Positions 5,702 to 51,474 of a DNA stretch of 64,000 nucleotides are shown here, piece after piece (position 1 is the first letter of the stretch; each line of letters starts with the position of its first letter). Below the pieces are notes generated by a model. That model made no database searches. It was not told the DNA's origin and worked only from the letters and a program-made list of their open reading frames with translations. Position numbers and translations under genes: made by a program. The DNA lies in NCBI GenBank assembly GCA_026874595.1, contig CM049310.1, positions 39,623,558-39,687,557 of the forward strand. The letters run 5' to 3'. Origin of the DNA: Sipunculus nudus (taxonomy: Eukaryota; Annelida; Sipuncula; Golfingiida; Sipunculidae).

Positions 5702-5875
5702 CATCTTTAGGTTCACCATGGGTCCGTATTGGCTGTAACAGTAGTAGTCCATGCTTTCCGTATAATCGTCATAACTGTAGCATAGCGAATAACCCTGAGG
5801 TAAAAAATCTGTTGAGAAAGATGTCCTCTACTGTACTGGATTGCACCAACTAGACATGAGTAGAGCTGCCATCAT
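5702..5875 (-). pseudogene. Copy N1: 5' fragment of the SWCY-family gene
   Basis: From the ATG at 5875 the minus strand reads a start like MMAALLMSSWC, so it is the 5' end of the multicopy family. Codon 16 is TAG (5828-5830). The frame then continues with recognisable family sequence (TSFS, then Tyr/Ser-rich, YCYSQYGPMVNLKM) and diverges at about 5702. The central and C-terminal two thirds are missing, and satellite B begins about 200 bp beyond the break. The upstream flank matches the N-type copies. It cannot encode a family protein. The unknown function is discussed under copy N2 (21341-21919). Confidence 0.85.
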
Positions 5876-6660
5876 TAGCTCTCGATATGTATGCCTGTAG
5901 TGAGATGACTGTAGAAGTTCAGGCTTTGGTAATGTACCCAACATGTTCACTATTTGTGGTAAGCCTCTTGCGTGTGTGTCTTTCTCGGAATCTTGTGATC
6001 AACTGTGGAGGGAAGGGAACCTACGTAATTTATATTGAAAATAGAGGTTCAGTAATGAACAGTGTATCAAAGAGCTTTCACCAAACAACGTAGGTAACCC
6101 ATTAACTGGCTTTAAAAGAACAAACCACCACGCCTTGTTCACTGTTGGATCGTCGCCCATTCCTTTTTAATTACCCAACATTGGTTGAAGATAATTAATT
6201 ACACGCCCCCGGCCTCCCAGTTTGACACAAATACAGCGTGACCAATCAAGCGCCACATGCATCATGCACTTACTTTTGTTTGCTCACCAACCACGCTTTT
6301 ACTAAATATACTTCAAAGATGAGTCAGGTTTACCGCATTACATAAATAGGATAGAATTAGCGCTAATAATCAAACACAGTTGTTAGGATATGGAGTAAGG
6401 TTATTATCACGATTACTGAATTAAGCACCGTTTGGTTAAGATTTGATTACAAGTTGAAATAGTTTAGTTCTAAGAAATTCAAACACTCTCCACAACGATA
6501 TACCTGGTTCCGCTTGCAATTGGTCCCAATATTTGTTACATTTATAGTTGGTGCTCTCAGCATGCATGCCACGCGGAACATCTGCGAGATACCATGGTTG
6601 ATGTGGGTGAGTGGATCAGTGTTCATTTAGTTACTCTTAATGATTCAAGTATATATAATG
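5876..6660 (-). promoter_or_regulatory. N-type upstream region of copy N1
   Basis: Homologous to the regions upstream of N2, N3 and N4. A TATA-like ATATAAATTA lies on the minus strand at 6027-6036, about 155 bp before the start codon. Further out come a decayed form of the CAAACAWTGTTTG dyad (6177-6188), a CCAAT-type word GACCAATCAAGCGCC (about 6240-6254) and a block at 6480-6600 (CCGCTTGCAATTGG, GGTGCTCTCAGCATGCATGC) that recurs at 32.9, 33.1 and 49.2 kb. Promoter activity is inferred from conservation across copies. Confidence 0.55.
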
Positions 6661-6668
6661 GTGTGTGT

Positions 6669-6670
<2 letters not shown>

Positions 6671-6720
<50 letters not shown>
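6671..6720. repeat. (TA)n(TG)n microsatellite
   Basis: A run of TA dinucleotides about 38 bp long passes into TGTGTGTGTG. No other content. Confidence 0.95.
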
Positions 6721-6745
6721 ATGGATACATGAGTTGTATGTATGT

Positions 6746-7563
6746 ATTATTATTATTATTTTGATTATACCATATTTATACATATTTATAAAGCACTCTT
6801 TTCACCCAAAGATTTCCAAAGTGCTTTACAATGTAAATTTCATATAAAATAATAAACATGAAACATATATAGCCAATTTTGAAAATACAGATTATACAAC
6901 GACTAAATCTAATGCAGTATAAACTAATTATAAATTAAAAGTACTAAAAAACTTTAGGCTAGACAAGGGTGAATAATAGAATTAAGAACACTTGAAGAGG
7001 TAAAAAGTTCAAAAACGTTTAAAAATATATAGAGAGATTCACATGCGTGCAGCTATGAGTCATTGCATATAATGTGTAAGTTCAAAGTGGAGCTAAAAAA
7101 AATAGGTTTAAAGTAGCTTCCTGAAACTAGAAAGTTTTTTACCTGTGTGATGCTCCTTGGAAGTTTGTTCCACAGCTCTGGTGCGGCATAACTGAAACAC
7201 ATTTCTCCATAGTTTTGGTCCGTATTTTTCGTTTTGTTAATGTTAAAAATTTTCTGGCCGAAGTCATCTAGCTTGCCTATATATACATGTATCTTACATG
7301 TGTCTGATATATAATGATGTCTGACCATTCAGGGCATTTTAAGTATGTACCAATAGTTTGTATTGTAATATGTAATGTTTAGGGAGCCAGTGTAATTCTG
7401 CTAAAACAGGGGTCATGTGACAGTAACGGGCTATTCTTGTGATTGTACGTGCGGCTGTGCTTTGAACTCTTTGCAATTTATCAATCTGAAAACTAGGCAA
7501 CCCATATAGAAGCGCATTGCAATAGTCCATTCGAGATGTAACTAGTTCATAAACAAGCGACAT
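6746..7563 (-). mobile_element. 5'-truncated non-LTR retrotransposon, 3' end
   Basis: The minus strand encodes two pieces of the C-terminal domain that follows reverse transcriptase in CR1/L2-type non-LTR elements. The first (7563-7339) has SRMDYCNALLYGLP, KLQRVQSTAAR and ELHWLP. The second (7328-7053) has CFSYAAPELWNKLPRSI. They are separated by a frame break. Downstream, at about 6785-6830, lies a hairpin (AAAGCACTTTGG / AAAAGAGTGCTTT) followed by a (TAA)n tail at 6746-6761. That hairpin-plus-triplet tail is typical of L2-like elements. Dead copy; no RT core or endonuclease is present. Confidence 0.85.
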
Positions 7564-8164
7564 TGTTATTCAGGTGGTGCCTAATAGGTCCAACCCTACG
7601 TAATTATGTGTAGCCTGCTCTGCAAATTGAATTAACTCGTTTTTTCTATATTAAGAGTATTATCAAACACCAAGATTTCTTACTTGTCACTGCACCTTTG
7701 TGCAAGTTCTCTGGGTGGACCATTAGTTAGGGGTAAATTACTGCTATACATTTCAGTACATCCTGAGTCTTTCATATCCATTCAGTTTTATAATTTAAAA
7801 GGGGCTCATATGGTCATACCCATACACTACAGGCGGTATGCCATATGATGACATTGCAGTTAATTTCTTAACCGTAACGACACTACACAGTGATTCTGAT
7901 GGTCCATCCAAGGGAATTATAAAACATTGTATATTGCTAAACAAAAAATAAATAAATTGTGTGTACACTCTCCAGGTGCATACAACCAAATATGTCATTG
8001 CCCAATAAATAAAATGTAAATATTTTTTTTAAGAGTTATGGTATGTATTTCAATGTAAAACAAATTTCATTGTAGAGAATTTGTTATATATTAAATTCAA
8101 AATTTAATCCTGCAACCTGTTATTTTCCATTTAGCCATTTTACCTTAGCCGTTTTTACCTCAGC
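7564..8164. other. AT-rich non-genic stretch
   Basis: No supported gene, repeat or motif is seen between the retrotransposon end and the SINE-like piece. Confidence 0.5.
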
Positions 8165-8262
8165 CATTATAACATAGAATTTCTCATAGACACGCCGGGG
8201 ATATTGAACCCAGGTCACATGCGGGAAAGATCCGAGGGTTTTGCCCTACCAATGTTCAGGAC
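8165..8262 (-). mobile_element. tRNA-derived SINE head (fragment)
   Basis: On the minus strand the sequence reads AAACCCTCGGATC, then CATGTGACCTGGGTTCAATA and TCCCCGGCG. The GGGTTCAAT string resembles the B box of an RNA polymerase III promoter in a tRNA-headed SINE. The SINE pieces at 35128-35375 and 50565-50675 have a similar head. The body and 3' tail are not recognisable, so this is a fragment or a coincidence. Confidence 0.4.
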
Positions 8263-8369
8263 CCAAATATTTTTTGGTTAAAAAGTCAAGCTATGCAGTA
8301 AAGTCTATAAAATATTTTTGTATGGTCAATACATATGTGCCGAAATTAATATTTCACTATATTTGTGGC

Positions 8370-8370
<1 letters not shown>

Positions 8371-8427
<57 letters not shown>

Positions 8428-8550
8428 CTCTCATACTTTTTCACCACGTTTCTCTCTCACTCTTATTATACATTCTAGTATGTATCGCTTTCTCACCCTC
8501 ATTTTCTCTTGATCTCGATCTCTTTCCCACACACACACACACAGACGCAC
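8371..8550. repeat. Compound (TA)n / pyrimidine / (CA)n microsatellite
   Basis: About 55 bp of TA repeats, then a TCTC-rich stretch, then CACACACACA. It sits in the 3' flank of copy V1, the place where other family copies also carry a (TC)n(CA)n microsatellite. Confidence 0.9.
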
Positions 8551-8629
8551 CCAAGCACAAACAATTGTGACTCATAGGGTAATATAAGGCTGATCCAAAA
8601 TAACGTGTTAACGTGTCAGGAATATATAA

Positions 8630-8635
8630 TTTATT
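8630..8635 (-). terminator. Polyadenylation signal of V1
   Basis: AATAAA on the minus strand, about 115 bp past the ancestral stop position, in the same context (AATAAATTATATATTCCTG) as V5 and close to the context in V6. Confidence 0.45.
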
Positions 8636-8749
8636 ACGCCATAACAAATATATTAGAGTATTTATAGACATAAAGAATTAACAGTCTGTATATATCACAG
8701 GCAATAATCACAATTGTGCTGTCCTTACGTGCAAATTATCCATAGTAAT

Positions 8750-8888
8750 TTATAAATCCCTATAGTTCTGTCCTAAATCCAGGTCACAAGTCCACACTGA
8801 TATCAGGTAAATAGTCCTCGCAGGATCTGAGTGAGATAATTTCCTCCAAAGACAACGGACTATCGTGTCTCCTTTTATTTTCACTGAA
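8750..8888 (-). pseudogene. Copy V1: 3' remnant of the SWCY-family gene
   Basis: Only the last ~45 codons of a V-type copy remain: the stretch encoding SLEEIISLRS, then a diverged WEDYLPDIS. A small deletion shifts the frame just after PDISVDL, giving a premature TGA. The ancestral stop aligns at 8750-8752. On its 5' side the remnant is joined directly to the promoter block (at about 8888), so one deletion removed nearly the whole coding region and the proximal promoter. It is non-functional. Confidence 0.85.
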
Positions 8889-9060
8889 CGCGTTGTATCA
8901 AAGAACACTGGTCAATCAACAGAGTGTGCTGGTAACTAATTAACAGCTCCTAAAAGAACAAAGAGAGCGGGTGTTGCCGTCGGCATTTAGGCGTGAACAT
9001 AGCTTGTCCACTGTGAGGACCGGGAGTTTCTTAAAGTGCCAAACAATGTTTGATGTTATT
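8889..9060 (-). promoter_or_regulatory. V-type upstream block of V1 (no gene left)
   Basis: Matches the distal promoter of the other V copies: GAACACTGG, AACAGAGTGTGCTGGTAACT, AAAGAACAAAGAGAGCGGGTG, GAGGACCGGGAGTTTCTT and the dyad CAAACAATGTTTG at 9040-9052. The TATA part was lost in the deletion that made V1. No activity can be read from sequence. Confidence 0.6.
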
Positions 9061-9825
9061 TATTAAAATAACCAGAGACTTATGGTTAGACAGAACTGAA
9101 GCGTGACCCGGGAAGCTGTCTGCCTTCCTCTTATGCTGTTTACGAACTACCTTTCATCTAAATTTACCTCAAAGATTAATGCAATAAACTTTGATATAAC
9201 TACAGAAGGACTGATTAAATGTTTACAAACACATTCATATGTATGTTTATTGTTTCTTACTTCCTGGTTATCATTATGTTGATAAATCTAGAACATTGTA
9301 ATTAACTGACAGAACTTATATAACTTTTTGAAACAAGGACAATGAGTTAATCTTATTTACAAAAAAATATGATAATGTAACAGTCATGTGGACCTGATTC
9401 TTTAGGTTTTTGCCAAATTGATGATTAAAATTGGATGAATATATTGTTTAATAGTAAACGGTTCTTGGTCTTATTTCGAATTTTAATTCTAATGGAAAAT
9501 GTATTAAAAAACTGAAATCCTCGCTAAATTTAATTATTATATTAAATTAGTTTAATGTATTGGGACAGACTAAGGGAGCAGATAAAATTTGCGGACATTG
9601 ATTTCTAAGGCACCGCGCGCGTCAATTTGACCCCCTGTATCAAAATATTTTTTTTTCAGTTTTAACTGACATATTTGAGTGTCAGTCGCTCGATCATTTC
9701 TTTCAAGAAAGTAATATAATTTCGATTAAATTTTCCTTTTTTTTATATTGTCCTTTTCCTCGTTTAGCAAAACAAGTCTGCTTTTTTCCCCATGTTGTCC
9801 CCTGATCATATGAAATTTATATCGA
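9061..9825. other. Non-genic stretch with part of a MITE family
   Basis: No gene. The part at about 9595-9830 (AAGGCACCGCGCGCGTCAAT, then CCTGATCATATGAAATTTAT) aligns with the interior of the 310-bp inverted-repeat element at 42782-43091 (AGGCACCGCCC, CCTGATCAAATGACATTTTTA), so it is probably a diverged or half copy of that element. Confidence 0.5.
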
Positions 9826-10450
9826 TATTCTGTGCTTCTCACTCGCCCCCTCCCTCCTTTATTCGCGGCTTCAGTCTTCCTTCCCGCTCCCTTCTTCATT
9901 CACATTTCCTTTCACCCTGCCTCACTCTTTCCTCATTCTCATTTATTCGCTCCTCCTCAATCGCCCCCCTCACCTGACTCCCATCTCACTATCTCCCTCA
10001 CGATCTTTCCCCACCTTCTCTGCTCTCCTCATTCCTTCACTTCTCTTTCTCGTTCAATTCATTCGCTCCTCACCCCTAATTTACCTTCTCACTCCCTCCC
10101 TCTTTCACTCTCCTTCATTCCTTCACTCACTCATATATCTAATCGTTTTACCAATAACTTCTCTGCTCGCTCCTTCACAGGCTCCTTCAGTCACCTGCCT
10201 CTGTTCCTCATGGGTTCTCATTCGCTAACCGAGTCACCAAATTACTCACTCACCGGACTGCTCCATGTCCCCATAACAATGTTCCTCCTTATCTCGTTCC
10301 CTCACTCTTCCACTCCCGTACTCCCCCTTCACTCACTCTGACCTGCTCCTGTACTTAGCAAGTCACCTCACTCCGTCACTCCTTCATACACTCATTCCGT
10401 CACTCACTCCAGGACTCCGTCACTCACTCACTCACTCCGTCACTCACTCC
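9826..10450. repeat. Pyrimidine-rich TCACTCCYT low-complexity tract
   Basis: About 600 bp of loosely repeated CTCACTCC / TTCACTC / CCTCCTT words, ending in near-regular (TCACTCCG)n. Long open frames here are compositional artefacts. Similar tracts occur at 14862-15000 and 23955-24275, so the tract belongs to the duplicated gene environment. Confidence 0.8.
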
Positions 10451-11235
10451 CTCGTAATGCAATTTTTGTTACTACACACAAGTTTAAAACTTATACAAGT
10501 ATTAATACAAAAGTAATACTAAAGCATTACAAATAACAAATCCACAATCGTGAAAGATAAATCGGAATAACATCTTTTTACATACAGGTAAGAAGTGCGT
10601 TATTAGATAATAATCAAGATAGTTCATGAAGAATCTTCTGCTACTGCATGAAGAAAAAAGGGACCTCATTAAGTCAAGCGGCTGAATAGTGTACGTTCCC
10701 GGAAGATTCATTTAATCCATATTCAGTGTCCGCTTTTATCAAGGCTCTTACGAGTTCAATGTCCGACAGGACAACCAGTTGTTCCTCAACCTGAACACAT
10801 ATGTGCTCTGGTAAATGTTAGCAGTATAATATTTATTTATAAGAACTATCGCATGAAAGTAGATTTTTCCACAACGGTGACATATCACCTCATGTTGCAA
10901 ATTAAAATAATCCAGATTGACAAATATCTCCGGTACCTACTTGAATCTAGGCAATGAACCAGGTATCTGACTTAATGATATGTACAGAGAACGAGAAGCG
11001 ATCACAATGAACCTAAAACAATCTGCTTACAGTCGAGTTTCGGGAAACGCTAAATTCATGCACCATGTACTCATAATTCACAACACTTTCAATGTCGCTG
11101 CATCTCCATTCATCCCAGTCTGGAGAAGGTTCACAACCGATGAAGCATTTAAAAATTATATCAAGCAGGTAATATTTTTAAATAGTCTATGTTCGTTATG
11201 TCGTGATCATTGTAAATCTGTACTCTAAAATTTGA
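10451..11235. other. AT-rich non-genic stretch
   Basis: No supported gene. Short open frames on both strands show no domain that I recognise. Confidence 0.5.
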
Positions 11236-11239
11236 CATT

Positions 11240-11500
11240 ATGTTTGTGCTTCTACACTTTGTGGTCGATTAATGTTCGATGGCGGCTCTCGCCTGCGTCA
11301 TAAGTATCAGATTACCTTTACGTATTGGTTGATTCATCATAGTTATCATATTGACGTCTTCAAGAAAATGTTGAAATATCCTCGTTCGGCATTTGCTGCA
11401 ACATGGTACACATAAATTACAATTTAGATCACCCATGGCCATGAATATCTCATGATCAATAGAACAGTATTTCATCTTTCACAATATATGAACCAAAATC
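11240..11500 (-). mobile_element. Non-LTR retrotransposon endonuclease fragment
   Basis: The minus-strand frame 11475-11269 reads HEIFMAMGDLNCNL, then a spacer, CRTRIFQHFLEDVNMI and MMNQPIRKGN. This matches the C-terminal half of the APE-type endonuclease of non-LTR elements, where a GDLN motif is followed by an LI-PTR-like motif. The PTR is degraded and the usual T-IDH ending is replaced by AAIEH. No RT follows in phase, so it is an isolated dead fragment. Confidence 0.6.

Positions 11501-12836: not shown

Positions 12837-12837
<1 letters not shown>
11501..12837. other. Non-genic stretch with one short hairpin
   Basis: No supported gene. A perfect 7-bp inverted repeat, GGCGCTA / TAGCGCC (12269-12275 and 12283-12289), with a 7-nt loop, stands out as GC-rich in AT-rich surroundings. 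Confidence 0.5.
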
Positions 12838-12894
<57 letters not shown>

Positions 12895-12908
12895 ACAAAC
12901 ACACACAG
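12838..12908. repeat. (CT)n(CA)n microsatellite downstream of V2
   Basis: About 52 bp of pure CT followed by ACACAAACACACAC. It lies about 300 bp past the stop of gene V2, the position typical for the family. Confidence 0.95.
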
Positions 12909-13055: not shown

Positions 13056-13187
13056 ATATATACAAACATAAAGAATTCACATATATATCACAGACTTATT
13101 CACAGTTTTTGTAATATTGCATATATATACAAACATAAAGAATTCACATATATATCACAGACTTAATCACAGTTGTTGTAATATTGC
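13056..13187. repeat. 67-bp direct duplication in the 3' flank of V2
   Basis: Two near-identical units, each with TACAAACATAAAGAATTCAC then ATATATATCACAGACTTA and CAGTTKTTGTAATATTGC, start at about 13056 and 13123. Only V2 shows the duplication. Confidence 0.85.
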
Positions 13188-13208
13188 TCATAAATTATCA
13201 ATAACAAT

Positions 13209-13796
13209 CTAAATATCACTCCGGCTCTGGTCGAGGTCCAGGCCACGGATCAAGTCCACACTAATATCAGGTAAACAGTCCTCCCAGGATCTGAGAGAGA
13301 TAATTTCCTCCAAAGACAACGAACTCTCGTGGCCGCTCTCATTCTCACTGGACGCTGGATTCTGCCGTAACAAACAGCAAGTTGATTGTGTGGTGTCACA
13401 ATCTACCGGTAGAGAGCAACCTCTGTCTGTCGCCTGCTCTGTCTCTGCCGTTGCCATCTTCACAAGAAGTGCTGGTTGTGGCGCCCTCTGTCCTCGCTCC
13501 TCTTCAAGAAGTCCAGGGAATTTACTGTAATCTATGTGATACGCTGATCCGACCTGGATTGAGAGCGGTTGGTCTACCGGCACGGAGGGTTCTGTCGTCT
13601 GCTCTGTATGTGACGTCATCTTGAGGTTCACCATGGGTTCGTACTGGCTGTAACAGTAATGTCCCATGCCGCCTCCGTAATCTTCATAACTGTATGAATT
13701 GTAACAATGCGAGTCACCCTGAAGGTAATAATCCCTTGAGAAAGATGTCGTCTGCTGTACTGGATAGCACCAACTTGACATGAGTAGAACTGCCAT
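13209..13796 (-). CDS. Copy V2: intact SWCY-family protein, 195 aa, function unknown
   Basis: An uninterrupted 195-codon frame from ATG 13796 to TAG 13209. I do not recognise the protein. The N-terminus is MAVLLMSSWCYPVQQTTSFS, followed by a Tyr/Ser/Gly-rich block with Cys residues (HCYNSYSYEDYGGGMGHYCY). Next comes the centre shared by nearly all copies (MVNLKMTSHTEQTTEPSVPV, HIDYSKFPGLLEEE, PQPALLVKMAT), a Ser/Glu spacer (SENESGHESS) and the acidic-hydrophobic tail motif SLEEIISLRSWEDCLPDI. There is no signal peptide, membrane segment or basic nuclear signal. The tail could be an activation-type or docking motif; this is inference. The start is supported by the same MAALLM-like start in all copies and by a TATA-like box about 150 bp upstream. 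The C-terminus (GLDLDQSRSDI) differs from other V copies. A canonical AATAAA seen in V1, V5 and V6 is changed here. Confidence 0.7.
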   Translation of the reverse strand: MAVLLMSSWCYPVQQTTSFSRDYYLQGDSHCYNSYSYEDYGGGMGHYCYSQYEPMVNLKMTSHTEQTTEPSVPVDQPLSIQVGSAYHIDYSKFPGLLEEERGQRAPQPALLVKMATAETEQATDRGCSLPVDCDTTQSTCCLLRQNPASSENESGHESSLSLEEIISLRSWEDCLPDISVDLIRGLDLDQSRSDI

Positions 13797-14110
13797 GGTT
13801 TTACCTGTACCACTCGATCCTTCAGTGAAATGAGTGTGAAATGTAGTAGGCGCCTAATTGTTGTTCTATTCTATCAGTAAAATTATCGACGCGTTTGTCT
13901 TGAAGTTCTGAGATCTTCTGATAAGGAATGACTGGGGATTATCCTTATATGATGGCTGCCGTCTTGTGAAGTGCTCAGAGTTTGTCACATCCAGCCACTG
14001 AGGGCGCGTTGTTTCAAAGAACACTGGACAAACAACAGAGAGTGTTGATAACTCATTAACGGCTCTTAAAAGAACAAAGAGAGCGGGTGTTGTCGTCGCC
14101 ATTCAAGCGT
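13797..14110 (-). promoter_or_regulatory. V-type promoter of V2
   Basis: On the minus strand a TATA-like ATATAAGG lies at about 13944-13951, roughly 150 bp upstream of the ATG. It is preceded by a block conserved in all V copies: ACAAGACGGCAGCC, GTGACAAACTCTGAGCA, TTGTTTGTCCAGTGTTC, CGTTAATGAGTTATCAACAC, TCTTTGTTCTTTTAAGAGC and GGCGACGACAACACCCGCTC. The dyad (AAAACAATGTTTG) follows at 14201-14213. Function is inferred from conservation. Confidence 0.6.
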
Positions 14111-17268: not shown

Positions 17269-17812
17269 ATGGCAGCTCTACTCATGTCAAGTTGGTGCCA
17301 TCCATTGCAGCAGACGTTGGCTCGAAATGTAATATGAAGATTACGGAGGCGGCACGGGACATTACTGTTACAGCCAATACGAACCCATGGTGACCCTCAA
17401 GATGACGTCACATACAGAGCAGACGACAGAACCCTCCGTGCCGGTAGACCAGCCGCTCTCTATCCAGGTCGGATTAGAGTATCACATAGATTATAGTAAA
17501 TTCCCTGGACACTTTGAAGAGGAGCAAGGACAGAGGGCGCCACAACCAGCTCTTCTTGTGAAGATGGCAACGCCAGAAGCACAGCAGACGACAAACAGAG
17601 GTTGTCCTCTACCGGCAGATGGTCTAATCACACATTCAACATGTTGTGTGTTACGGCGGAATCCTGCGGTCAGTGAGAATAAGAGCAGCCATGGGAGTTC
17701 GTTGTCCTTGGAAGAAATTATCTCACTCAGATCCTGGGATGACTGTTTACCTGATATCAGTGTGGACTTGATCTGTGACCTGGACATAGGTCAGAACTAT
17801 AGGGATTTTTAA
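17269..17812 (+). pseudogene. Copy V3: SWCY-family gene with a 5' deletion and frameshift
   Basis: The family ATG (17269) is kept, but the frame reads MAALLMSSWCHPLQQTLARN and stops at codon 23. A deletion removed the SRDYLxQGDSHC segment and shifted phase. Beyond it the original frame resumes (YEDYGGGTGHYCYSQYEP) and stays open to TAA 17812. An internal Met at 17387 would give 141 residues carrying the invariant centre and the motif SLEEIISLRSWDDCLPDI, ending QNYRDF. It could make an N-terminally shortened protein if initiation moved; more simply it is a pseudogene. It lies head-to-head with V2 and converges with N2. Confidence 0.8.
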
Positions 17813-18006
17813 ATTACTATGTATAATTTATACGCAATTTATAGATAATTTATTACTATGGATAATTTATACACAACTATGATGTTGCCTGTGATATAGC
17901 CTTAGCCTGTACTGTTGATCTTTTATGTACATGTGCATACATTTAATATATATCACATGATTTCGTTTAAATATCTGTTGATACTCTTTTATTATATATA
18001 TTGTAT

Positions 18007-21194: not shown

Positions 21195-21200
21195 TTTATT
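21195..21200 (-). terminator. Polyadenylation signal of N2
   Basis: AATAAA on the minus strand about 140 bp beyond the stop codon. N3 has a mutated form in the homologous sequence (TTGATTTTTAATTATATTATG). Confidence 0.5.
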
Positions 21201-21340
21201 TATATTATATAATGCACAAAAATCAATAACAAATATCACATAAATTATAAATATAATAATAACACATGTTGTCATTGCAGAATAAAAGGTTTAAATATCA
21301 CAGATAGTATCACAGTTTAGCGGCTCGTGTATAAAAGTTA

Positions 21341-21919
21341 TCAACTGCACATGTCTCTCTGAGACAAACCAAAGTCCAGGTCACAGGTCAGGTTCCCACT
21401 GATATCAGGTAAACAGTCCTCCCAGGACCGGAGAGAGATAATTTCTTCCAAGGACAACGGACTATCACAGATGGCAGAGATTGGTTTAGACGAACAGCAG
21501 TTGAACTGTGTGGTATTATCATCTACCGGTAGATGGCAGAATCTGTTTGTCGTCTGATGCGCTGCTGTCGTTGCCATCTTCACAAGAAGAGCTGGTTGTG
21601 GTGCCTTCTGCCCTTGCTCCTCTTCAAGAAGTCCAGGGAATTTACTGTAATCTATGTGATACTCTGATCCGACCTGGATAGAGAGCGGCTGGTCTACCGG
21701 CACGGAGGGTTCTGTTGTCTGCTCTGTATGTGACGTCATCTTGAGGTTCACCATAGGTTCGTATTGGCTGTAACAGTAGTGGTCCATGCTTTCTGTATAA
21801 TCGTCATAACTGTATGAACTGTAACAATGCGAGTCACCCTGAGGCAAATAATCCCTTGAGAGATATGTCGTCTGCTGTAATGGATAGCACCAACTTGGCA
21901 TGAGTAGAGCTGCCATCAT
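21341..21919 (-). CDS. Copy N2: intact SWCY-family protein, 192 aa, function unknown
   Basis: An open frame of 192 codons from ATG 21919 (a second ATG follows at once) to TGA 21341. It is the N-subfamily reference copy. By residue: 1-20 is a conserved start with SWCYP at 9-13; 24-53 is Tyr-rich with eight Tyr and Cys at 32 and 49; 56-75 is MVNLKMTSHTEQTTEPSVPV; 87-100 is YHIDYSKFPGLLEE; 107-116 is APQPALLVKM; 118-155 is a variable Thr/Cys spacer; 156-173 is the acidic-hydrophobic motif SLEEIISLRSWEDCLPDI; the end is LSQRDMCS. No signal peptide, membrane helix, zinc finger or enzyme motif is visible. It looks largely disordered. A short transcriptional co-regulator, induced by an unknown cue through the TATA promoter, is one guess; no family is recognised. 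No intron is evident. Confidence 0.72.
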   Translation of the reverse strand: MMAALLMPSWCYPLQQTTYLSRDYLPQGDSHCYSSYSYDDYTESMDHYCYSQYEPMVNLKMTSHTEQTTEPSVPVDQPLSIQVGSEYHIDYSKFPGLLEEEQGQKAPQPALLVKMATTAAHQTTNRFCHLPVDDNTTQFNCCSSKPISAICDSPLSLEEIISLRSWEDCLPDISGNLTCDLDFGLSQRDMCS

Positions 21920-25137: not shown

Positions 25138-25720
25138 ATGGCAGCTCTACTCATGTCAAATTGGTGCTCTCCATTACAACTGACGACACCTTTCTCAAGG
25201 AATTATTTACTTAAGGCGATTCGCGGTGTAATAGTCCATACAGTTATACAGAATATACAGGCAGTATGGATCACCACTGTTACAGTAAACCCATGGTGAA
25301 CCTCAAGATGACGTCACATACAGAGCAGACGACAGAACCGTCCGTGCCCGTAGATCAGTTTCTCTCCATCCAGGTCGGATCAGAGTATCACATAGATTAC
25401 AGTACATTTCCTGGACTTCTTGAAGAGGAGCGAGGCCAGAGGGCGCCAAAAACCAGCTCTTATTGTGAAGATGGCACCGACAGAAGCGCAGCAGACGTTG
25501 GACAGAGGCTGCCCTCTACCGGCAGATGGTGACATCACACAGTCATACACGCTGTTTGCCTCTGCAGAATTCTGAGTTTAGTGAGAATGAGAGCGGCCGT
25601 GAGAGTTTGTGTCCTTGGAAGAAATTATCCCACTCAGGTCCTGGGAGGACTGTTTACCTGATATCAGTGTGGACTTTATCTGTGACCTGGACATTGGCCA
25701 AAACTGTTCAGCACATCTGA
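25138..25720 (+). pseudogene. Copy V4: SWCY-family gene with several frameshifts
   Basis: The ATG at 25138 gives MAALLMSNWCSPLQLTTPFS, then loses phase in the QGDS segment and ends after 53 codons. A second phase (from about 25266) carries the invariant centre up to ERGQRAP, where an extra A shifts it again. A third phase from about 25526 carries the remains of the SLEEII tail region. The normal stop context is lost. At least three lesions make this a clear pseudogene, although the central nucleotide sequence is still very close to the intact copies. Confidence 0.88.
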
Positions 25721-25745
25721 GATATTGCCTGTGATATATATATAT

Positions 25746-30485: not shown

Positions 30486-30701
30486 CCATCACACACAACG
30501 CCCTACACAGGAGGACCATTTAACAGACAAAAGATTGAAGGCATAACACATTGATTTTTAATTATATTATGTAATGCACAACAACCAATAACAAATATCA
30601 CGTAAATTATAAATATCACATTCATTCATGTTGTCATTGCAGAATAAAAGGTTTAAATATCACAGAAAGTTTCACAGTTTAGAGGCCCATGTATAAAGTC
30701 A

Positions 30702-31318
30702 TCAACTGCACATGTCTCTCTGAGACGGACCAAAGTCCAGGTCACAGATAAGGTTCCCACTGATATCAGGTAAACAGTCCTCCCAGGACCTGAGAGAGAT
30801 AATTTCCTCCAAAGACAACGGACTATGGACCTGAGAGAGATAATTTCCTCCAAAGACAACGGACTACCACAGAGGGCAGGGTTTGGTTGAGACGAACAGC
30901 AGTTGAACCGTGTGGTATTCTCATCTACCGGTAGAGGGCAGCCTCTGTATGTCGTCTTATGCGCTTCTGTCATTGCTGTCTTCACAAGAAGAGCTGGTTG
31001 TGGCGTACTCTGTCCTCGCTCCTCTTCAAGAAGTCCAGGGAATTTACTGTAATCTACATGATACTCTGATCCGACCTGGATAGAGAGCGGCTGGTGTAGG
31101 GGCACGGCGGGTTCTGTCGTCTGCTCTGTATGTGACGTCATCTTGAGGTTCACCATGGGTTCTTATTGGCTGTAACAGTAATGTCCCATGCTTTCCGTAT
31201 AATCATCATAACTGTAAGAACTGTAACAATGCGAGTCACCCTGAGGCAAATAATCCCTTGGAAAAAATGTCGTCTGCTGTAATGGATAGCACCAACTTGA
31301 CATGAGTACAGTTGACAT
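30702..31318 (-). pseudogene. Copy N3: SWCY-family gene with nonsense codon and 41-bp duplication
   Basis: From the ancestral ATG (31318; it now reads MSTVLMSSWCYPLQQ) the frame is intact to codon 52, where TAC has become TAA (31163-31165) within YCYSQ-EP. Downstream the frame is open through the centre. A 41-bp tandem duplication (30787-30868) repeats the codons for SLEEIISLRS and shifts phase, so the C-terminus is scrambled. An internal Met at 31156 could start a 167-residue product, but with the wrong tail. The ancestral stop aligns at 30702-30704. Confidence 0.88.
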
Positions 31319-35696: not shown

Positions 35697-35855
35697 ATGC
35701 CATATATACAGAACAAAGTATCACCATATATTTATAACATCTTATGTGATGTATATTAACAGACGTATTTACAGACTATAAGCATTAAAAGTCTATACAT
35801 ATCACAGGCAATATCACAGTTGTGCTGTCCTCGTGCGCAAATTATCCATAGTAGT

Positions 35856-36428
35856 TTATAAATCCCTATAGTTCTGACTTATGTCAAGTTCACAGATCAA
35901 GTCCATCCTGATATCAGGCAAACAGTCCTCCCAGGATCTGAGTGCGATGGTTTCTTCCAAGGAAAAGGAACTCTCATGGCTGCTCTCATTCTCACTGACC
36001 GCAGAATTGTGCCAAGACAAACAACATGATGACTGTGTGAAGTTACCATCTGCCGGTAGAGGGCAGACTCTGTCTGTCGTCTGATGCGCTTCTGCCGTTG
36101 CCATCCTCACAAGCAGAGCTGGTTGTGGCGCCCTCTGTCCTCGCTCCTCTTCAAGAAGTCCAGAGAATTTACTGTAATCTATGTGGTACTCTTATCCGAC
36201 CTGGATAGAGAGAGGCTGGTCTACCGGCACGGAGGGTTCTGTCGTCTGCCCTGAATGTGACGTCATCTTTAGGTTAGCCATGGGTTCGTATTGGCTGTAA
36301 CAGTATTGTTCCTTGAAATAACTGTATGAATTGTAACAACGCGAGTCGCCCTGAGGTAAATATTCCCTTGAGAAAGATGTCGTCTGCTGCAATGGATAGC
36401 ACCAAGTTGTCATGAGTAGAGCTGCCAT
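35856..36428 (-). pseudogene. Copy V5: SWCY-family gene with a single nonsense codon
   Basis: Almost intact. From ATG 36428 it reads MAALLMTTWCYPLQQTTSFS to the invariant centre, where codon 79 is TAA (36192-36194), a change from TCA within QVGSEYH. The same frame is then open to the normal stop (35856): EYHIDYSKFSGLLEEE, a Ser-rich spacer with SENESSHESS, SLEETIALRSWEDCLPDI and the end QNYRDL. The Tyr block is shortened (YFKEQYCYSQ). An upstream in-frame ATG at 36455 is not family-like. A sequencing error or stop-codon readthrough would restore a full 190-residue frame; otherwise it is a young pseudogene. Confidence 0.8.
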
Positions 36429-43753: not shown

Positions 43754-43807
<54 letters not shown>

Positions 43808-45109: not shown

Positions 45110-45215
45110 GACTGCTCGACGGGTCACGCTTCAGTTCTGTCAAACACGGTGTGTTTCTTCAGTAAAACCACCAAGTCCCTACATTCAAGTAACGCCTGAA
45201 TAGCTATTGAAACCG
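45110..45215 (+). promoter_or_regulatory. Orphan family upstream block, module copy 3
   Basis: CTCGACGGGTCACGCTTCAG, TTCTGTCAAACACGG and TAACGCCTGAATAGCTATTG. It is more decayed than the other two copies, and the dyad is lost. Confidence 0.45.
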
Positions 45216-45859
45216 GTGGTGGTCGGGTGTTTTATTCTTGGAAAGAAAGTTTTCAGAATTAAAGACTAATAATTAATTTTCATGAACCGTTTAAAAGGCA
45301 AATGCTTTTATTGTCATTTCAAAAGTACACACGCGCACATTTGCTATAGCCACTGCTTAAGCACTTAACTATCACTATCACAACCTAAATAACCTAAAAT
45401 GCTTACCCCTTGTGTCCTTATCCTTATTAAAAAATAGTTTAAAGCAAAATTTTACACTCGTCTGAAGGTTCTAAGTAACTGTTTAATAATTTATTTTTAT
45501 CTCTTAAAAGTTTGAGGTTATACTCAACTAGTTTTCCGTTTCCAGTTATACAAGTTATTAGTTCATATGTGAAATATCACATAAAAAAACTGCCGTGTAT
45601 GTAAAAGGGTTTGTATGAAATATATATTTCTATTTACTGTTATCATTTTGTCAGTTTTGTTCTGATCGTCTCTCAATACAAACAACCACAGAAAATAAGA
45701 CAATTGTTATATTTCGAACCATAGTATATCATATAAACTGACACTTTTATTTGAAATTTAATTTAATCAAATTCTTCCATGAATACGAAATAACCACTGG
45801 TTTTAAAATGGCACTGCTAGAAGCACAAAAACCCCAAGCGAAACCACGATTAGATCGCT

Positions 45860-46040
45860 CTTTAAGGCTTTTGAACAAAACATTGATCGCACTTTAACGT
45901 TCGAGATCGAGTTCTGCACTCTGGATTGGCTGGTCTCTGCTGCTGGGGCCCTAGCCGGTGCGTGGCCCGCTCGAGGCTTTGTGGATGTGGGTGCTGTGGC
46001 TTTCCTCGGTCACCGGTGCTAGTAAAACTGTGGCGGCTGT
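45860..46040. other. Local GC-rich patch
   Basis: CTGCTGGGGCCCTAGCCGGT and GCGTGGCCCGCTCGAGGC stand out in AT-rich DNA. No frame on either strand gives a known domain. It could be an exon relic or a piece of unrelated sequence. Confidence 0.35.
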
Positions 46041-46690
46041 TACAACCCATAATGTATTAACCGGCCCATATTGTAATAACGGCCCATATTGTAATAAAAA
46101 ATGCCCCATATTGTAATAAACCATACCCTGCCCATGTTGTAATAAAAAGGGAAGTGGGAAAAACGGCCCATATTGTAATAACACATGTTTAAGCTCAAGA
46201 ATGAATCCCAAATCAAACAGGCGACATGTCGTTTGAGAATACCTTCTAACATGACATCCATTTTTGGTTCCTCATTAGTATAACAGATGCAGTCATAATG
46301 GAAATCCAGTGCTTTTCATATTTGTATGTTCACGTAAACATTCACGTCACAGGAAGTCAACATTTATGTTGTCTACGAAAATTTGACATAAATTTAATCA
46401 TAAATCTTCTGAACTTCATTTTTTACAATATTGGCCTTTTTGCCCCTTTTAACCCCCCCCCCCCCCCCCATGTTGATTACAGCAAAAGTGACGTACAGTT
46501 ATTACAATCGTACTCATTTATAATCAAAGTATTGGCCATTATTACAATATTGGCCGTTTTTACAACAAAATGGGCCATTTAAACTACAATATTAGCCATA
46601 TCGTAACAACGACCCATAATGTTATAACCGTCTCATATTGTAATAACGGCCTATATTGTAATAAAAATGACGCATACTGTTATAATTTCA
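46040..46690. repeat. Interspersed GGCCCATATTGTAATAA motif array
   Basis: The ~17-bp motif recurs about 12-14 times with spacers of 4-40 bp. Copies left of about 46200 are in plus orientation. At 46425-46560 several are reversed (TTACAATATTGGCC), and those at 46575-46670 are plus again. A C run (46449-46469) lies in the middle. Not a simple tandem repeat. Confidence 0.75.
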
Positions 46691-47630
46691 AAGTACCAAT
46701 ATTGTTATGAAACTGAAACATCTGACTTTGACTAAACGGTGGATTGCCCTTGAATTCGGTATGCCTAATTATCTTGAAGAACGTGAACTGCTCCATTTTC
46801 TTAATTTTTATACGTTTCTACTTTCATTTTTGAGGACAACAGTATATAATTTCTCCTAAACTTCATTTATTAAGCCTCCTCCCGTAGGGAGGGGACGCTT
46901 CTACTTGTTGATGTGTTTATTTCTTTATCATTATTTGGGGCAAAATACTTTGTTGGACTTTCTTAGGTCCTCCGAGTGCAAAACCACCGATTTTTTTCTT
47001 CTTTCTTTTGCCCTTGTGTGAGCTTTCAAAAACTAACCTTCGGCTGTAAAATCAGTCACGGGAGACAGAATTGCACCTGTTATTTATTGTTGACCTTGAC
47101 CTTATTTCCAAGCTCTTACACCACATGTATATCAAAATACCCATTATCGCTCGATTCTATCCCAGTTTGAGCTAGCTCTCAAACACGGCTGATCATCCAA
47201 AACTTTATTTGGGTCAGAGTAATATTGACAGGTAATATCTTTGCAACTGGTGTTTATTTCGGACCATAATCTAATTTTCGAGCCATCCATATATTTAGTC
47301 ATTTTCAAAATTATCCTGTTTACCCTGTTTAAATATTTTATCATCCCATCAAAACACTGATTCAACAAAAAAGTTAACATGACCCATGGCTATATTTCTT
47401 TCATATTAGCTTGGTCACCGGCATTTTGGTTCATCTAAACAGATAGTGATTATGTGAGTCCAGTGGTATTTCATACCTGTATGTTCACTTACACATTCGT
47501 GTCACGAAAAGTCAATAGCTGAATTGTCAAAGTTAATGTGCATGAAATCTGAATTATCAAATTAGTTTATTTTTTAATAAATATAAATTTGGAAACATGA
47601 GTTCAGTTCTCTGTCTGATTTTTATTCGTA
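46691..47630. other. Non-genic stretch
   Basis: No supported gene. Short frames near 46976-47170 and 47144-47380 have no recognisable domain. Confidence 0.45.
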
Positions 47631-47633
47631 CTC

Positions 47634-47635
47634 AT

Positions 47636-47698
<63 letters not shown>

Positions 47699-47706
47699 CA
47701 CACAGC
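47634..47706. repeat. Poly-C/(TC)n(CA)n microsatellite downstream of N4
   Basis: CCCCCCCCC, about 50 bp of CT, then TACACACACAGC, about 230 bp past the N4 stop. Confidence 0.95.
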
Positions 47707-47933
47707 TACACATTCATACAGAAGAGGATCCTTTAACAAACAAACGATCGAAGGCATAATACATATAACTTTGTGTTTATAATGTAAGGCACAATAATCA
47801 GTAATAAATATCACATAAATAATAAATATAGTAATATCACATTTGGTATCACTCCTTTATGTATTTATCCCAGAACAAACAGTGTAAATATCACAGATAG
47901 TATCACAGTTTAGCGGCTCGTGTATAAAAGTTA

Positions 47934-48512
47934 TCAACTGCACATGTCTCTCTGATACAGACCAAATTCCTGGTCACAGATCAGGTTCCCACTGATATCA
48001 GGTAAACAATCCTCCCATGACCTGAGTGAGATAATTTCTTCCAAAGACAACGGACTATCACAGATGGCAGGGTTAGGTAGAGACGAACAATAGTTGAACT
48101 GTGTGGTATTCTCATCTACCGGTAGATGGCTCCCTCTGTCTGTCGTCTGCTGCGCTTCTGTCGTTGCGATCTCCACAAGAAGAGCTGGTTGTGGCGCCCT
48201 CTGTCCTCGCTCCTCTTCAAGAAGTCCAGGGAATTTACTATAATCTATGTGATACTCTGATCCGACCTGGATAGAGAGTGGCTGGTCTACGGGCACGGAG
48301 GGTTCTGTCGTCTGCTCTGTATGTGACGTCATCTTGATGTTCACCATAGATACGTACTGGCTGTAACAGTAGTGGTCCATGCTGTCTGTATAATCATCAT
48401 AACTGTATGAATTGTAACAATGCGAGTCACTTTGAAGCAAATAATCCCTTGAGAAAGATGTCGTATGCTGTACTGGATAGCACCAACTTGTCATGAGTAG
48501 AGCTGCCATCAT
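47934..48512 (-). CDS. Copy N4: intact SWCY-family protein, 192 aa, function unknown
   Basis: An uninterrupted frame from ATG 48512 (double Met) to TGA 47934, the same length as N2 and collinear with it. Differences are spread along the protein: TSWCYPVQHTTSFS near the start, LLQSDSHCYNSYSYDDYTDS, YVSMVNIKM where other copies have YEPMVNLKM, LVEIATTEAQQ for LVKMATxEAx, and LICDQEFGLYQRDMCS at the end. The invariant centre and SLEEIISLRSWEDCLPDI are unchanged. Retention of a full frame with many amino-acid differences from N2 suggests selection on the protein, but I have not computed this. The promoter has a weakened TATA. Function unknown. Confidence 0.72.
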   Translation of the reverse strand: MMAALLMTSWCYPVQHTTSFSRDYLLQSDSHCYNSYSYDDYTDSMDHYCYSQYVSMVNIKMTSHTEQTTEPSVPVDQPLSIQVGSEYHIDYSKFPGLLEEERGQRAPQPALLVEIATTEAQQTTDRGSHLPVDENTTQFNYCSSLPNPAICDSPLSLEEIISLRSWEDCLPDISGNLICDQEFGLYQRDMCS

Positions 48513-48960
48513 TTTCTAATACACGTACGCCTAAGATTAGGTGACTGTATATGTTTAGAAGGTGGTAATGTGTCCAACTTGTATAGGCCTACTATATGTG
48601 GTATAACCCTTGCGTGTGTGCCTCTCGGGGTCCGGAGATCAACTGTGGAAGGAGGAAAAGCTACTTAATTAATATTGAAAATGGAGGTTCAGTAATGAGC
48701 TAGATATTTGTTACGTCAGGATCCTGAGCACAAAGGACTATATCAGAGGTATAGTGAATTAAAGAACATTGACCAAACAACGTGGCCTATTAACTGCGTT
48801 CTAAAGAACAAACCACTACTGTTGGATCATCTGGGATTCCTTTTTAATTACCCAAACATTGTTTGAAGATAGCTAATTACCCACTTCTGGCCTCAGATAT
48901 ATAGCGTGACCAATCAAGCGCCACATGCATCACTTACTTTTGTTTGCTAACCAACCACGC
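48513..48960 (-). promoter_or_regulatory. N-type promoter of N4
   Basis: Same order of elements as N2, but the TATA position reads CAATATTAATTAAG instead of CAGTATAAATTAAG (about 48664-48676). The dyad CAAACATTGTTTG is perfect (48853-48865) and GACCAATCAAGCGCC is kept near 48909. Expression may therefore be weaker than that of N2. Confidence 0.5.
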
Positions 48961-49395
48961 TTGTACTAAATATACTTCAAAGAAGAGTCAGGTATACCGC
49001 ATTACATTAATAGGATTGAACCAGTGCTAATAATCAATAACACTTGTTAGGACATGGAGTAAGATTGTAAGCGCAGTTACTGACTGAGTTAAGCAGCGTG
49101 ATCTAAGTTGGGTTACAAGGTGCAAAAGTTTGGTTTGACTACCTTCAAAGCTTCTCAATGATGATATACCTAATTCCGCTTGCAATTGTTCCGATATTTG
49201 TTACATTTATATTTGGTGCTCTCGGACCATCTGCGGGATACCACGTTTGATGTCGGATATGGCAGTGCTGAGTGGATTAGTGTTTATTAAGTTACACTCA
49301 AATATACCAGTTTACATAATGGTGTATGAAGTCTTACACAAAAATGTGAGCTACACTTGCACAAAAAGGTTAAGTTCAAACTCTTTATACATAAA
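48961..49395. other. Distal N4 upstream
   Basis: No gene. Contains the block CCGCTTGCAATTGTTCCGAT and TTTGGTGCTCTCGG shared with 6480-6600 and 32871-33230. Confidence 0.55.
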
Positions 49396-49515
49396 AAACA
49401 TGTGTATGTGTGTATGGATATATGTTATGTATATAAATATGTTTTTACGTACATGTATGTATAAATATTTATATAAATATATATATTTATATATGTGTGT
49501 GTGTCTGTGTGTGAA
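49396..49515. repeat. TATG/TATA/TG cryptic microsatellite
   Basis: Mixed GTGTATGTGTG, ATATTTATATAAATATATA and GTGTGTGTGTCTGTGTG. Open frames across it are artefacts. Confidence 0.85.
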
Positions 49516-49892
49516 GGTTAAAATGCATGGATTTATGTATATCTCTATGTTTAATGCTTTGTATTTGTACATATATATGGTGTTAAGGACCTTCTGATGA
49601 TTACATTTTTTTTTTCTTTCTGAATGCAAATATTAAATTGTTATTTTAAAGTTAATTTAAATGTAAAATTTTAATTTTCGAAACATTTTAAAACGTTGTA
49701 AAATTTATTATTTTTATTTTATCGTATATGCTTTTATGGAACTTTGGGTCTTAGGCCCTACATAACTGACTAAATACATGTATTTCTTTCTATTCAATTC
49801 AATTTGGTTCTCTCACTTAGGACAAGATTGGTATTGTTTGTGGGTTTTGTACATTAGAAGAATATTTTAACATTTTAATGATTGTCCCGCCT
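49516..49892. other. AT-rich non-genic stretch
   Basis: Pairs with 33560-33831 of block 1. Nothing else. Confidence 0.5.
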
Positions 49893-50135
49893 TTTATGCA
49901 GAACAATGTTCGTCGTCCTTTCAACCGCCGAAACACAAATGGTAATTGGTAAAGTTAGCTTGTCCGACCCACTCCCTTTCTGAATAACTTGCTGATTACA
50001 GCCATTCGATCACTTCTCGGCTCACGTCCTAAAATCACTCGCTTGAACTCATTTTCAATCATTCACGCTGCCACTTTGTGACGTCACTACTCCGCAGTCA
50101 ATCACTCAGTCCACACCACAACCTTTTTCTTTTGC
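49893..50135. promoter_or_regulatory. CRE-containing conserved module, copy 2
   Basis: Closely matches 33832-34140. The CRE palindrome (GTGACGTCAC, about 50087-50096) is kept, but the AP-1 word is changed (TCACTCA instead of TGACTCA). Confidence 0.35.
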
Positions 50136-50429
50136 AGAAAACACTTCTTCCATTTGTCTTCCACAAATACAATTAAAAATTTCGGTTGTGTTTGATTTAT
50201 TTGAACATTAAGATCTTTATTTACACCCGCCAGTTCATAAATGAACTTAAGTCTTGATTCATTGGGTTAATTTTAGATGTTATCATAGCATGTGATAGTA
50301 ACACTAACGATTGTTTAGTAAATTGTTTTGTTCGGCTGCTTCCTTATATTAGTTGCCTCCATTAATTTTCCTTTTCCACTTTATAAATTTATTAATTCAA
50401 TGAACGATTGAAAACGAATTCTGTGGCTA

Positions 50430-50546
50430 ATTGATTATTTAGCTGCATCAAAGACGCATTTGTGAAACCGATCTGGTCCTCGTCAGTCTGTGGAGAAACA
50501 TAGCCATGATGGTATAGATGTCCCATAGCAAGTAATGTGCCTCTAA
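50430..50546 (-). pseudogene. Gustatory-receptor-like gene tail, copy GRL2 (fused remnant)
   Basis: On the minus strand TTAGAG is followed by AHYLLWDIYTIMAMFLHRLT, the start of exon A of the receptor tail. The sequence then passes through a deletion straight into the end of exon B (CAAATGCGTCTTTGATGCAG). The intron and the TYFFLLVQF helix are gone and the frame ends early. Position relative to SINE and V6 is the same as GRL1 relative to its SINE and V5. Confidence 0.65.
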
Positions 50547-50564
50547 TATTAAGAAGAGAAATAT

Positions 50565-50675
50565 TAAGAGGAAACCGGAGAACCCGGAGAAAACCACCGG
50601 CCTTCGGCGGACAACTACGCCGGAGATTGAACCCGTGACGTCATCGGACAGAGCGTTTTACTCCTCGACTATCAC
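50565..50675 (-). mobile_element. tRNA-headed SINE (fragment)
   Basis: Minus strand: GAGGAGTAAAACGCTCTGTC, CGATGACGTCACGGGTTCAA (B-box-like GGTTCAA), GTAGTTGTCCGCCGAAGGCC and TGGTTTTCTCCGGGTTCTCC. Better kept than its twin at 35128-35375. Confidence 0.6.
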
Positions 50676-50714
50676 TATTTGTGTGGCGTATATATGAATA
50701 TTTCTCTCACACTT

Positions 50715-50758
50715 TCTCCACCTCGTCTCTCTCTTTCTCTCTCTCTCACACACACATA
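50715..50758. repeat. (TC)n(CA)n microsatellite downstream of V6
   Basis: TCTCTCTCTTTCTCTCTCTC then ACACACACA, about 260-300 bp past the V6 stop. Confidence 0.85.
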
Positions 50759-50854
50759 TAAGCACAGACGCATGCAAGAACAAAACAAATATGACAAACA
50801 GGGTTATTATACTATTTTTAGGATGAAACAAAACGTCGCCTCAAATATGTATAA

Positions 50855-50860
50855 TTTATT
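50855..50860 (-). terminator. Polyadenylation signal of V6
   Basis: AATAAA on the minus strand in AATAAATTATAC, about 160 bp past the ancestral stop. Confidence 0.5.
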
Positions 50861-51016
50861 TAGCCATATATACAGAACAAAGTATAAACAGATATTTACA
50901 ACACATTGTGTCATATATCTTAACAGATACATTTACAGACTTAATGCATTAACAGTGTATATATCACAAGCAATATCACAGTTGTGCAGTCTTTGATATA
51001 AATTATCCATAGGATT

Positions 51017-51474
51017 TTAAAAATCCCTATAGTTCTGACCTATGTCCAGGTCACAGATCAAGTCCACACTGATATCAGGTCTGACGGTAGAGGGCACCCT
51101 CTGTCTCTCGTCTGGTCTGTTTCTGTCGTTGCCATCTTCACAAGAAGAGTTGGTTGTGGCGCCCTCTGTCCTCGCTCCTCTTCAAGCAGACCAGGGAATT
51201 TACTGTAATCTATGTGATACTCTGATCCGACCTGGATAGAGAGCGGCTGGTCTAATGGCACGGAGGGTTCTGTCGTCTGCTCTGTGTGTGACGTCATCCT
51301 GAGGTTCACCAAGGGATCGCATTGGCTGTAACAGTAATTCCCCATGACGCTTCCGTAATCTTCATAACTATATGAGTTGTAACAACGCGAGTCGCCCTGA
51401 GGTAAATAATCCCTTGAAAAATATGTTGTCTGCTGCAATGAATAGCACCAACTTGGCATGAGTAGAGCTGCCAT
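51017..51474 (-). pseudogene. Copy V6: SWCY-family gene lacking the C-terminal motif
   Basis: From ATG 51474 the frame is intact through the start (MAALLMPSWCYSLQQTTYFS), the Tyr block (GSVMGNYCYSQ) and the invariant centre to RGCPLPS. A deletion of roughly 130 bp then removes the spacer and the whole SLEEIISLRSWEDCL segment and shifts phase. The frame reads DLISVWT and stops at 51058 after 138 residues. The ancestral stop would align at 51017-51019. A shortened protein without the tail motif could still be made and, if so, might act differently. Its promoter looks complete. I treat it as a pseudogene. Confidence 0.75.

Follow-up and report, generated by a model that had tools for sequence, protein, structure and literature searches.

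A probable fast-evolving family of compact, clustered genes in Sipunculus nudus with a shared candidate miR-2-type 3′ UTR element

Lineage-restricted tandem families of single-exon genes form the general class of comparison for the locus described here. Within the Bearded family, genes are marked by CSL (Su(H)) sites upstream, and the proteins by a Neuralized-binding motif of the NxxN type. PMC4575448 describes Bearded genes as fast-evolving and hard to find by BLAST, and the published complex as known from insects and crustaceans. TGTGAT is given as the K box of Drosophila Enhancer of split (E(spl)) genes in PMC2760746. In PMC7328434 and PMC4941716, miR-2a of a snail and of an oyster, respectively, starts UAUCACAG, and the oyster paper also has a miR-2 member, cgi-miR-2d, acting on the 3′ untranslated region (3′ UTR) of an immune gene, CgIkB2. 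Here we analyzed a 64-kb stretch of the 1.43-Gb Sipunculus nudus assembly (C5:39623558-39687557; the window), which carries ten pieces of a single gene. The data argue for a genuine, fast-evolving protein-coding gene family, spread over five clusters and made up mostly of compact single-exon genes, that would be under miR-2-type control and whose protein function we infer. We put the probability of this reading at about 0.72.

Searches with tblastn, blastn and a nucleotide profile found the ten pieces far beyond chance: three are full-length and open, five near-complete but broken, and two are fragments. This confirmed the first-pass annotation of the window, which had reported ten copies, three of them intact, at these places. 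Its orientation is corrected here for c17 and c25, which lie on the opposite (+) strand, and the motifs that it took to be common to all ten are not so, as c6 and c51 are without the tail motif and c9 is without the N-terminus. By their flanks and 3′ ends the copies fall into two classes, A (c6, c21, c31, c48) and B (c9, c13, c17, c25, c36, c51).

5702..5875, − strand: c6, fragment, 5′ piece of a class A copy
8753..8891, − strand: c9, fragment, 3′ piece of a class B copy
13209..13796, − strand: c13, full-length open single-exon gene, class B, 195 codons, protein start reads MAV
17269..17812, + strand: c17, broken class B copy with N-terminal deletions, open from 17333
21341..21919, − strand: c21, full-length open single-exon gene, class A, 191/192 codons, ATGATG start (192 aa from the first ATG)
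25138..25705, + strand: c25, broken class B copy with frameshifts
30702..31318, − strand: c31, broken class A copy with one TAA and an exact 41-nt tandem duplication at 30786-30866 that breaks the frame
35856..36428, − strand: c36, broken class B copy with one TAA and a 15-nt deletion in frame
47934..48512, − strand: c48, full-length open single-exon gene, class A, 191/192 codons
51020..51474, − strand: c51, broken class B copy, an internal 3′ deletion taking out the tail motif

The window copies multiplied by segmental duplication, because aligned blocks of up to 2.4 kb recur with family genes inside them and A-B neighbor pairs recur as well. A family of retrocopies or processed pseudogenes was rejected, as flanks are shared and promoters conserved. 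Amplification of a mobile-element or viral gene by transposition could likewise yield many copies in several clusters, and pieces of long interspersed nuclear elements (LINEs) are present in the window. However, the copies are clustered and sit in duplicated blocks with shared flanks, related genes contain introns, viral and prokaryote collections returned pattern matches and no relative, viral contigs included, and the best PHROGs match to the three intact window proteins had an E value of 0.33. We regard transposition as extremely unlikely.

The family is not confined to the window. A genome search gave 59 matches, which correspond to about 45 loci when neighboring rows are grouped by hand (with the help of exon 2 matches, described below, for the last two clusters).

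C5, 39.546-39.692 Mb: about 23 loci (24 counting c9, which is absent from the match rows)
C10, 57.64-57.69 Mb: 5-6 loci
C4, 58.02-58.08 Mb (C4-58): 8 loci
C4, 65.77-65.80 Mb: 4 loci
C4, 10.90-11.00 Mb: 5 loci

The tight cluster seen earlier thus stands in all but its limits, as the C5 array runs past the window over ~146 kb, and much of its right half is the window. Homologues outside the locus, whose absence the first-pass annotation had named as telling against it, were found in other clusters of the same genome. From the genome matches 33 stretches were retrieved, a subset of the loci, and openness was scored by one script on 28 single-exon-type loci (25 retrieved and the window's three), a set without the seven broken window copies and without two or more other loci on C5. 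Fifteen of the 28, in three clusters, were full-length and open, 12 of them beyond the window.

Open on C5 outside the window: L030, L031, L032, L034, L035, L036
Open on C10: L009, L010, L011
Open on C4, 58 Mb: L016, L017, L018

The script labeled c13 "partial" only because of its MAV start, and L013 yielded no frame. In the C5 copies L034, L035 and L036 the protein core (VPVDQPLSIQV..EYHIDYSKFPGLLEE.RG..PQPALL) is doubled in one open frame, and L037, also on C5 and itself broken further upstream, has three cores in one open frame.

Constraint on the coding region is apparent from the ratio of nonsynonymous to synonymous substitution (dN/dS). Values among c13, c21 and c48 were 0.41, 0.39 and 0.46 (bootstrap intervals 0.27-0.65, 0.25-0.63 and 0.25-0.87; c13/c21 gave 0.47 under another aligner setting), that is, 0.39-0.46 and below 1, where a value near 1 had been proposed as refuting the family. 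They were 0.29-0.55 within the C5 (six copies) and C10 (three copies) groups, and 0.33-0.47 for c13 or c21 against C4-58, at dS of 0.84-1.14; the comparisons within and between these groups left out two-core copies. Within the window alone, three open copies among eight near-complete ones moderately exceed the neutral-decay expectation (binomial P about 0.011, from a rough simulation). As evidence for selected genes the window by itself is suggestive, short of decisive; the case for genuine genes is made because of the 12 further full-length open copies elsewhere. Mean within-class divergence in class B was 0.13-0.18 in the coding region, 0.16 in the promoter (−330 to −150), 0.43 in the 5′ leader and about 0.5 in the outer flanks; the corresponding class A values were 0.08-0.10, 0.18, 0.27 and 0.29-0.43. 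Between the classes, tail codons 153-173 show 5.3% change at codon positions 1 and 2 versus 21% at position 3. The tail is kept at the protein level.

The two classes differ along their length in a manner that points to exchange between them. In trees of eight copies, classes A and B separate in the flanks and at the 3′ end on long branches with 100/100 support; in the tree of coding nt 1-390, class A still groups, on a branch under 0.01 with support of 50/69. Only one fixed A/B difference lies in coding nt 1-397, as against 16 in nt 398-555, and at fourfold sites of nt 1-390 copies of one class are as divergent from each other as from those of the other class (AA 0.112, AB 0.128, BB 0.139). 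Constraint alone fails to explain the missing class signal, because third positions of c21 and c31 in nt 1-390 (14/113 differ) have diverged nearly as far as most of the flank (mostly 0.11-0.15; leader 0.30). The pattern is best explained by gene conversion, whereby two old paralogue classes, A and B, would have come to share a homogenized front two-thirds of the coding region. The conserved tail codons lie outside the homogenized stretch.

All 15 open single-exon copies carry CTGTGATA, a K box, within 330 nt after the stop codon. The element was found in 0/15 in the 300 nt upstream and in 0/15 antisense downstream, and its chance of occurrence in shuffled sequence was on average 2.1% per gene. 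The only 8-mers present in all 15 are CTGTGATA and its one-base shift TGTGATAT, the next best reaching 10/15; likewise, the nine window 3′ UTRs have just four hexamers in common, those of CTGTGATAT. Across the window there are 17 sites versus 2.9 expected. Of these, 15 fall in the copies in sense orientation: 13 in their 3′ UTRs and 2 within the coding sequence of c21 and c48.

8693..8700, − strand: c9 3′ UTR K box
13153-13160 and 13086-13093, − strand: c13 3′ UTR K boxes CTGTGATA, the second duplicating the first as part of a 67-bp tandem repeat
17889..17896, + strand: c17 3′ UTR K box
21296..21315, − strand: c21 3′ UTR double K box CTGTGATA, 12 nt apart
25729..25736, + strand: c25 3′ UTR K box
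30658..30665, − strand: c31 3′ UTR K box
35800..35819, − strand: c36 3′ UTR double K box
47889..47908, − strand: c48 3′ UTR double K box CTGTGATA, 12 nt apart
50974..50981, − strand: c51 3′ UTR K box

The first eight bases of UAUCACAG, as printed for snail and oyster, pair exactly with CTGTGATA, an exact miR-2 seed match. It is thus quite likely, judging from sequence, that miR-2-family microRNAs repress these transcripts through CTGTGATA; the protein would therefore be made in a limited place or time. Rfam returned nothing at gathering score on the window, and 26 sub-threshold matches to microRNA precursors were rejected, all of them coming from simple or tandem repeats. The idea of a folded element in the 3′ UTR was dropped (z scores of 0.75, −0.23 and 0.58).

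The open copies also have an upstream box in common. TATA-like boxes occur 120-165 nt upstream of the ATG in 15/15 open single-exon copies, with a pattern widened so that the degenerate box of c48 counts, and by inspection they lie ~30 nt ahead of an initiator-like stretch. Where a poly(A) signal was seen, it follows the stop codon by 108-308 nt.

13945..13951, − strand: TATA-like box of c13, CATATAA
22054..22063, − strand: TATA box of c21, GTATAAATTA, ~30 nt before the initiator-like CTCAACAG (by inspection)
48666..48675, − strand: degenerate TATA-like box of c48, ATATTAATTA
21195..21200, − strand: poly(A) signal AATAAA of c21, 141 nt past the stop codon

The suggestion of single-exon genes with TATA-like boxes was therefore borne out. 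Their layout would be compact, with a predicted start ~30 nt beyond the box, hence a leader of roughly 90-135 nt, and a frame that runs to 191-210 codons, or to 279-282 in copies with a doubled core. The idea that a splice acceptor lies at the start codon was dropped, as no conserved AG is present there. That the genes are inducible found no direct support: no heat-shock, NF-kB, interferon-stimulated response element, SRF, octamer or CSL pattern was common to the nine upstream regions scanned. CTTTGWW occurs in 8/9 of these regions but is a common word.

Relatives with an intron were found in the two remaining clusters, C4 65.8 Mb and C4 10.9 Mb, where the family match covers the core only. 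In four parsed genes (L042-L045), the core constitutes exon 1 and starts at an ATG; a GT-AG intron of 240-814 nt separates it from an exon 2 of ~150 codons, which in L042 contains a TAA. Searched against the genome, exon 2 matched at nine places, none of them outside these two clusters. By inspection, a TATA-like stretch precedes each of the five two-exon genes looked at, CTGTGATA lies within 400 nt in 4/4 two-exon genes at C4 65.8 Mb, and the exon 2 stretch SWASCIPGTPD resembles, by eye, the tail motif SWEDCLPDIS. The description of the family as intron-poor and single-exon thus holds for most copies, but the family is not purely intronless. The single-exon genes likely derive from a two-exon relative whose exon 1 would be the core; the simplest view is that they would have lost the intron and gained a new N-terminus. 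A long branch in the tree leaves the root unsure. Two of the two-exon genes, L048 and L049 (C4 65769839-65770300 and 65780337-65780798), have an identical exon 2 and equal exon spacing and are a very recent duplication or an assembly duplicate.

The family proteins had no accepted match in Pfam, NCBIfam or PDB, in keeping with the initial failure to place them in a known family. Pfam was queried with the three window proteins, the ten A2 rows (E up to 10), ten relatives and four pieces taken from exons of two-exon genes. No family came up for the ten A2 rows, nor for nine of the ten relatives, at E up to 10, and an NCBIfam search on A2 gave no match. Matches of the three-core frame L037 to DUF2529 (E 0.001), HicB-like_2 (E 0.0021) and two weaker models were rejected as unrelated and below cut-offs, as were those of the exon pieces to Vps4_C (E 0.14-0.17), likewise below cut-off. 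The designed propeller 8prj_A in PDB (single-sequence E 4.7e-7) was attributed to chance in a repeat protein, as no stretch passes alone; in the profile search a related chain had E 0.063 and stretches E 31 and 41. A BH3, CITED or POU2AF-like protein, a resemblance by eye, was dropped for want of support in Pfam or PDB. Literature searches retrieved no paper naming this family, and eight peptide strings matched none of the papers searched.

The protein is probably intracellular and soluble, because the three intact proteins have a net charge of −17 to −20 and no long hydrophobic stretch. Disorder, proposed earlier, is borderline, charge-hydropathy placing 2/3 proteins on the disordered side. 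The tail, proposed as a docking site, is conserved in the protein, but the helical moment of its 18-residue motif is no better than that of shuffles (5616/10,000 reach it), and an amphipathic tail helix was dropped, even though the highest helical moments of the three proteins lie in the tail. A YxxM motif is present in all three intact window copies, from which we conclude nothing. With some uncertainty, the protein may be a small regulatory adaptor, in which the core would act as a docking module and a second contact would be made by the acidic SWEDC(L/I)PDIS tail; the dose of such an adaptor would be limited by miR-2-type control.

Several observations weigh against the reading of genuine genes under miR-2-type control. 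dN/dS within C4-58 is 0.66-0.83, and private changes on the three intact window copies number 26 nonsynonymous and 11 synonymous, near the neutral 2.9:1. The run-length conversion test passes Bonferroni correction in 2/28 pairs, c17/c51 (same class) and c25/c31 (A versus B). The copies share ancestry, so that 15/15 K boxes are non-independent observations, and a column-permutation test on the nine window 3′ UTRs gave 79/10,000. At C4 10.9 Mb the K box is found in 0/5 two-exon genes, and the 4/4 at C4 65.8 Mb amount to three distinct genes, since a pair of them has an identical exon 2. The pairing of miR-2a with four 3′ UTRs is modest, −11.4 to −13.0 kcal/mol, and paired sites 12-13 nt apart leave too little room for two microRNA complexes to bind together. 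Neither AATAAA nor ATTAAA is present within 330 nt in three of the 15 open copies (c13, L009, L032). Finally, within the proposal of a dose-limited adaptor the data support the control element, whereas we infer the adaptor role.

The substitution data among these points would suit a decaying tandem array of mostly pseudogenes, whose open frames are recent leftovers alike through recent duplication and gene conversion, not selection. The broken or fragmentary state of 7/10 window copies, the homogenized front of the coding region and the P value of about 0.011 for intactness within the window agree with such decay. It is harder to reconcile with 15 full-length open copies in three clusters, with low dN/dS between C5 and C4-58 at dS near 1, with a class B coding region and −330 to −150 stretch that change less than the leader and outer flanks, with a K box retained throughout, and with repeated cores that stay in frame. 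Decay is in our view improbable. As for the element, CTGTGATA might be a processing or RNA-binding-protein site rather than a microRNA site, the family itself being as described. Its position in the 3′ UTR, the close spacing of paired sites and the modest pairing outside the seed agree with this possibility, which we nevertheless find doubtful given the exact 8-mer match to the miR-2 seed printed for snail and oyster and the absence of the element from a related cluster that still has AATAAA downstream. A family of genuine genes, with CTGTGATA as a candidate miR-2 site, thus remains our preferred reading.

A Bearded-like Notch-pathway complex outside arthropods, consisting of small clustered single-exon K-box genes that modulate Notch signaling, would fit the small, clustered, single-exon genes with K boxes seen here, and kin that evolve fast and escape BLAST would be in character. 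Tests of Bearded membership mostly failed, the K box TGTGAT, found in 15/15, being the exception. None of the A2 rows matched a Pfam family, the Bearded model ESM4 included. GY and Brd boxes occur in 0/9 window 3′ UTRs (first 200 nt). No CSL pattern lies in the 700 nt upstream of 7/9 copies, with single distant ones in the broken c17 and c36, and the NxxN, WRPW and N.ANE[KR]L motifs are found in 0/3 intact window proteins. With the published complex recorded from insects and crustaceans in PMC4575448, we judge membership very unlikely.

Other features of the window are repeats. A minisatellite at 3092-5482 (106-bp unit, ~22.6 copies, in a GC-richer part) ends ~200 bp from the truncated c6, and tandem arrays with a 41-bp AT-rich unit occupy 1-1352. 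Two 409-bp stretches at 53743-54151 and 54970-55378, 99% identical and encoding a reverse-transcriptase-like piece (RVT_1, below cut-off), are a recent duplication of a LINE fragment. A zf-RVT domain at 62568-62789 (Pfam PF13966, E 1e-7) is probably from a LINE.

Tentatively, and with more doubt than confidence, the genes could be undescribed non-arthropod small regulators in which a Bearded-like control logic evolved independently: TATA-driven clustered single-exon genes would have their dosage limited by K boxes, and would encode a docking core that multiplies in frame and is diversified by conversion between intact and broken copies. The earlier interpretation of the locus is, overall, partly upheld. 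One genome holds about 45 loci and at least 15 open single-exon copies, yet no model in the general family libraries searched matches the family. The common 3′ UTR element offers an immediate and cheap experimental handle, miR-2 control, where the protein sequence is uninformative. The two-exon relatives, together with the cores repeated in frame, hint at how a family of this kind is put together.

Compared with the arthropod Bearded/E(spl) m4-m-alpha family and Enhancer of split complex, the family has in common small proteins, clustered genes, fast evolution and TGTGAT K boxes in the 3′ UTR; unlike them, it has no sequence match, Brd or GY box, shared CSL sites or Bearded motifs, and it has two-exon relatives. 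With miR-2-family targets such as oyster CgIkB2, acted on by cgi-miR-2d in PMC4941716, it shares a seed site in the 3′ UTR, but the protein is different and the miR-2 site here is predicted from sequence alone. Like lineage-restricted tandem families in general, it forms arrays of intact and broken copies with signs of gene conversion and without relatives in the libraries searched; unlike them, it has a repeatable protein core and a 3′ UTR element common to three single-exon clusters and one two-exon cluster.

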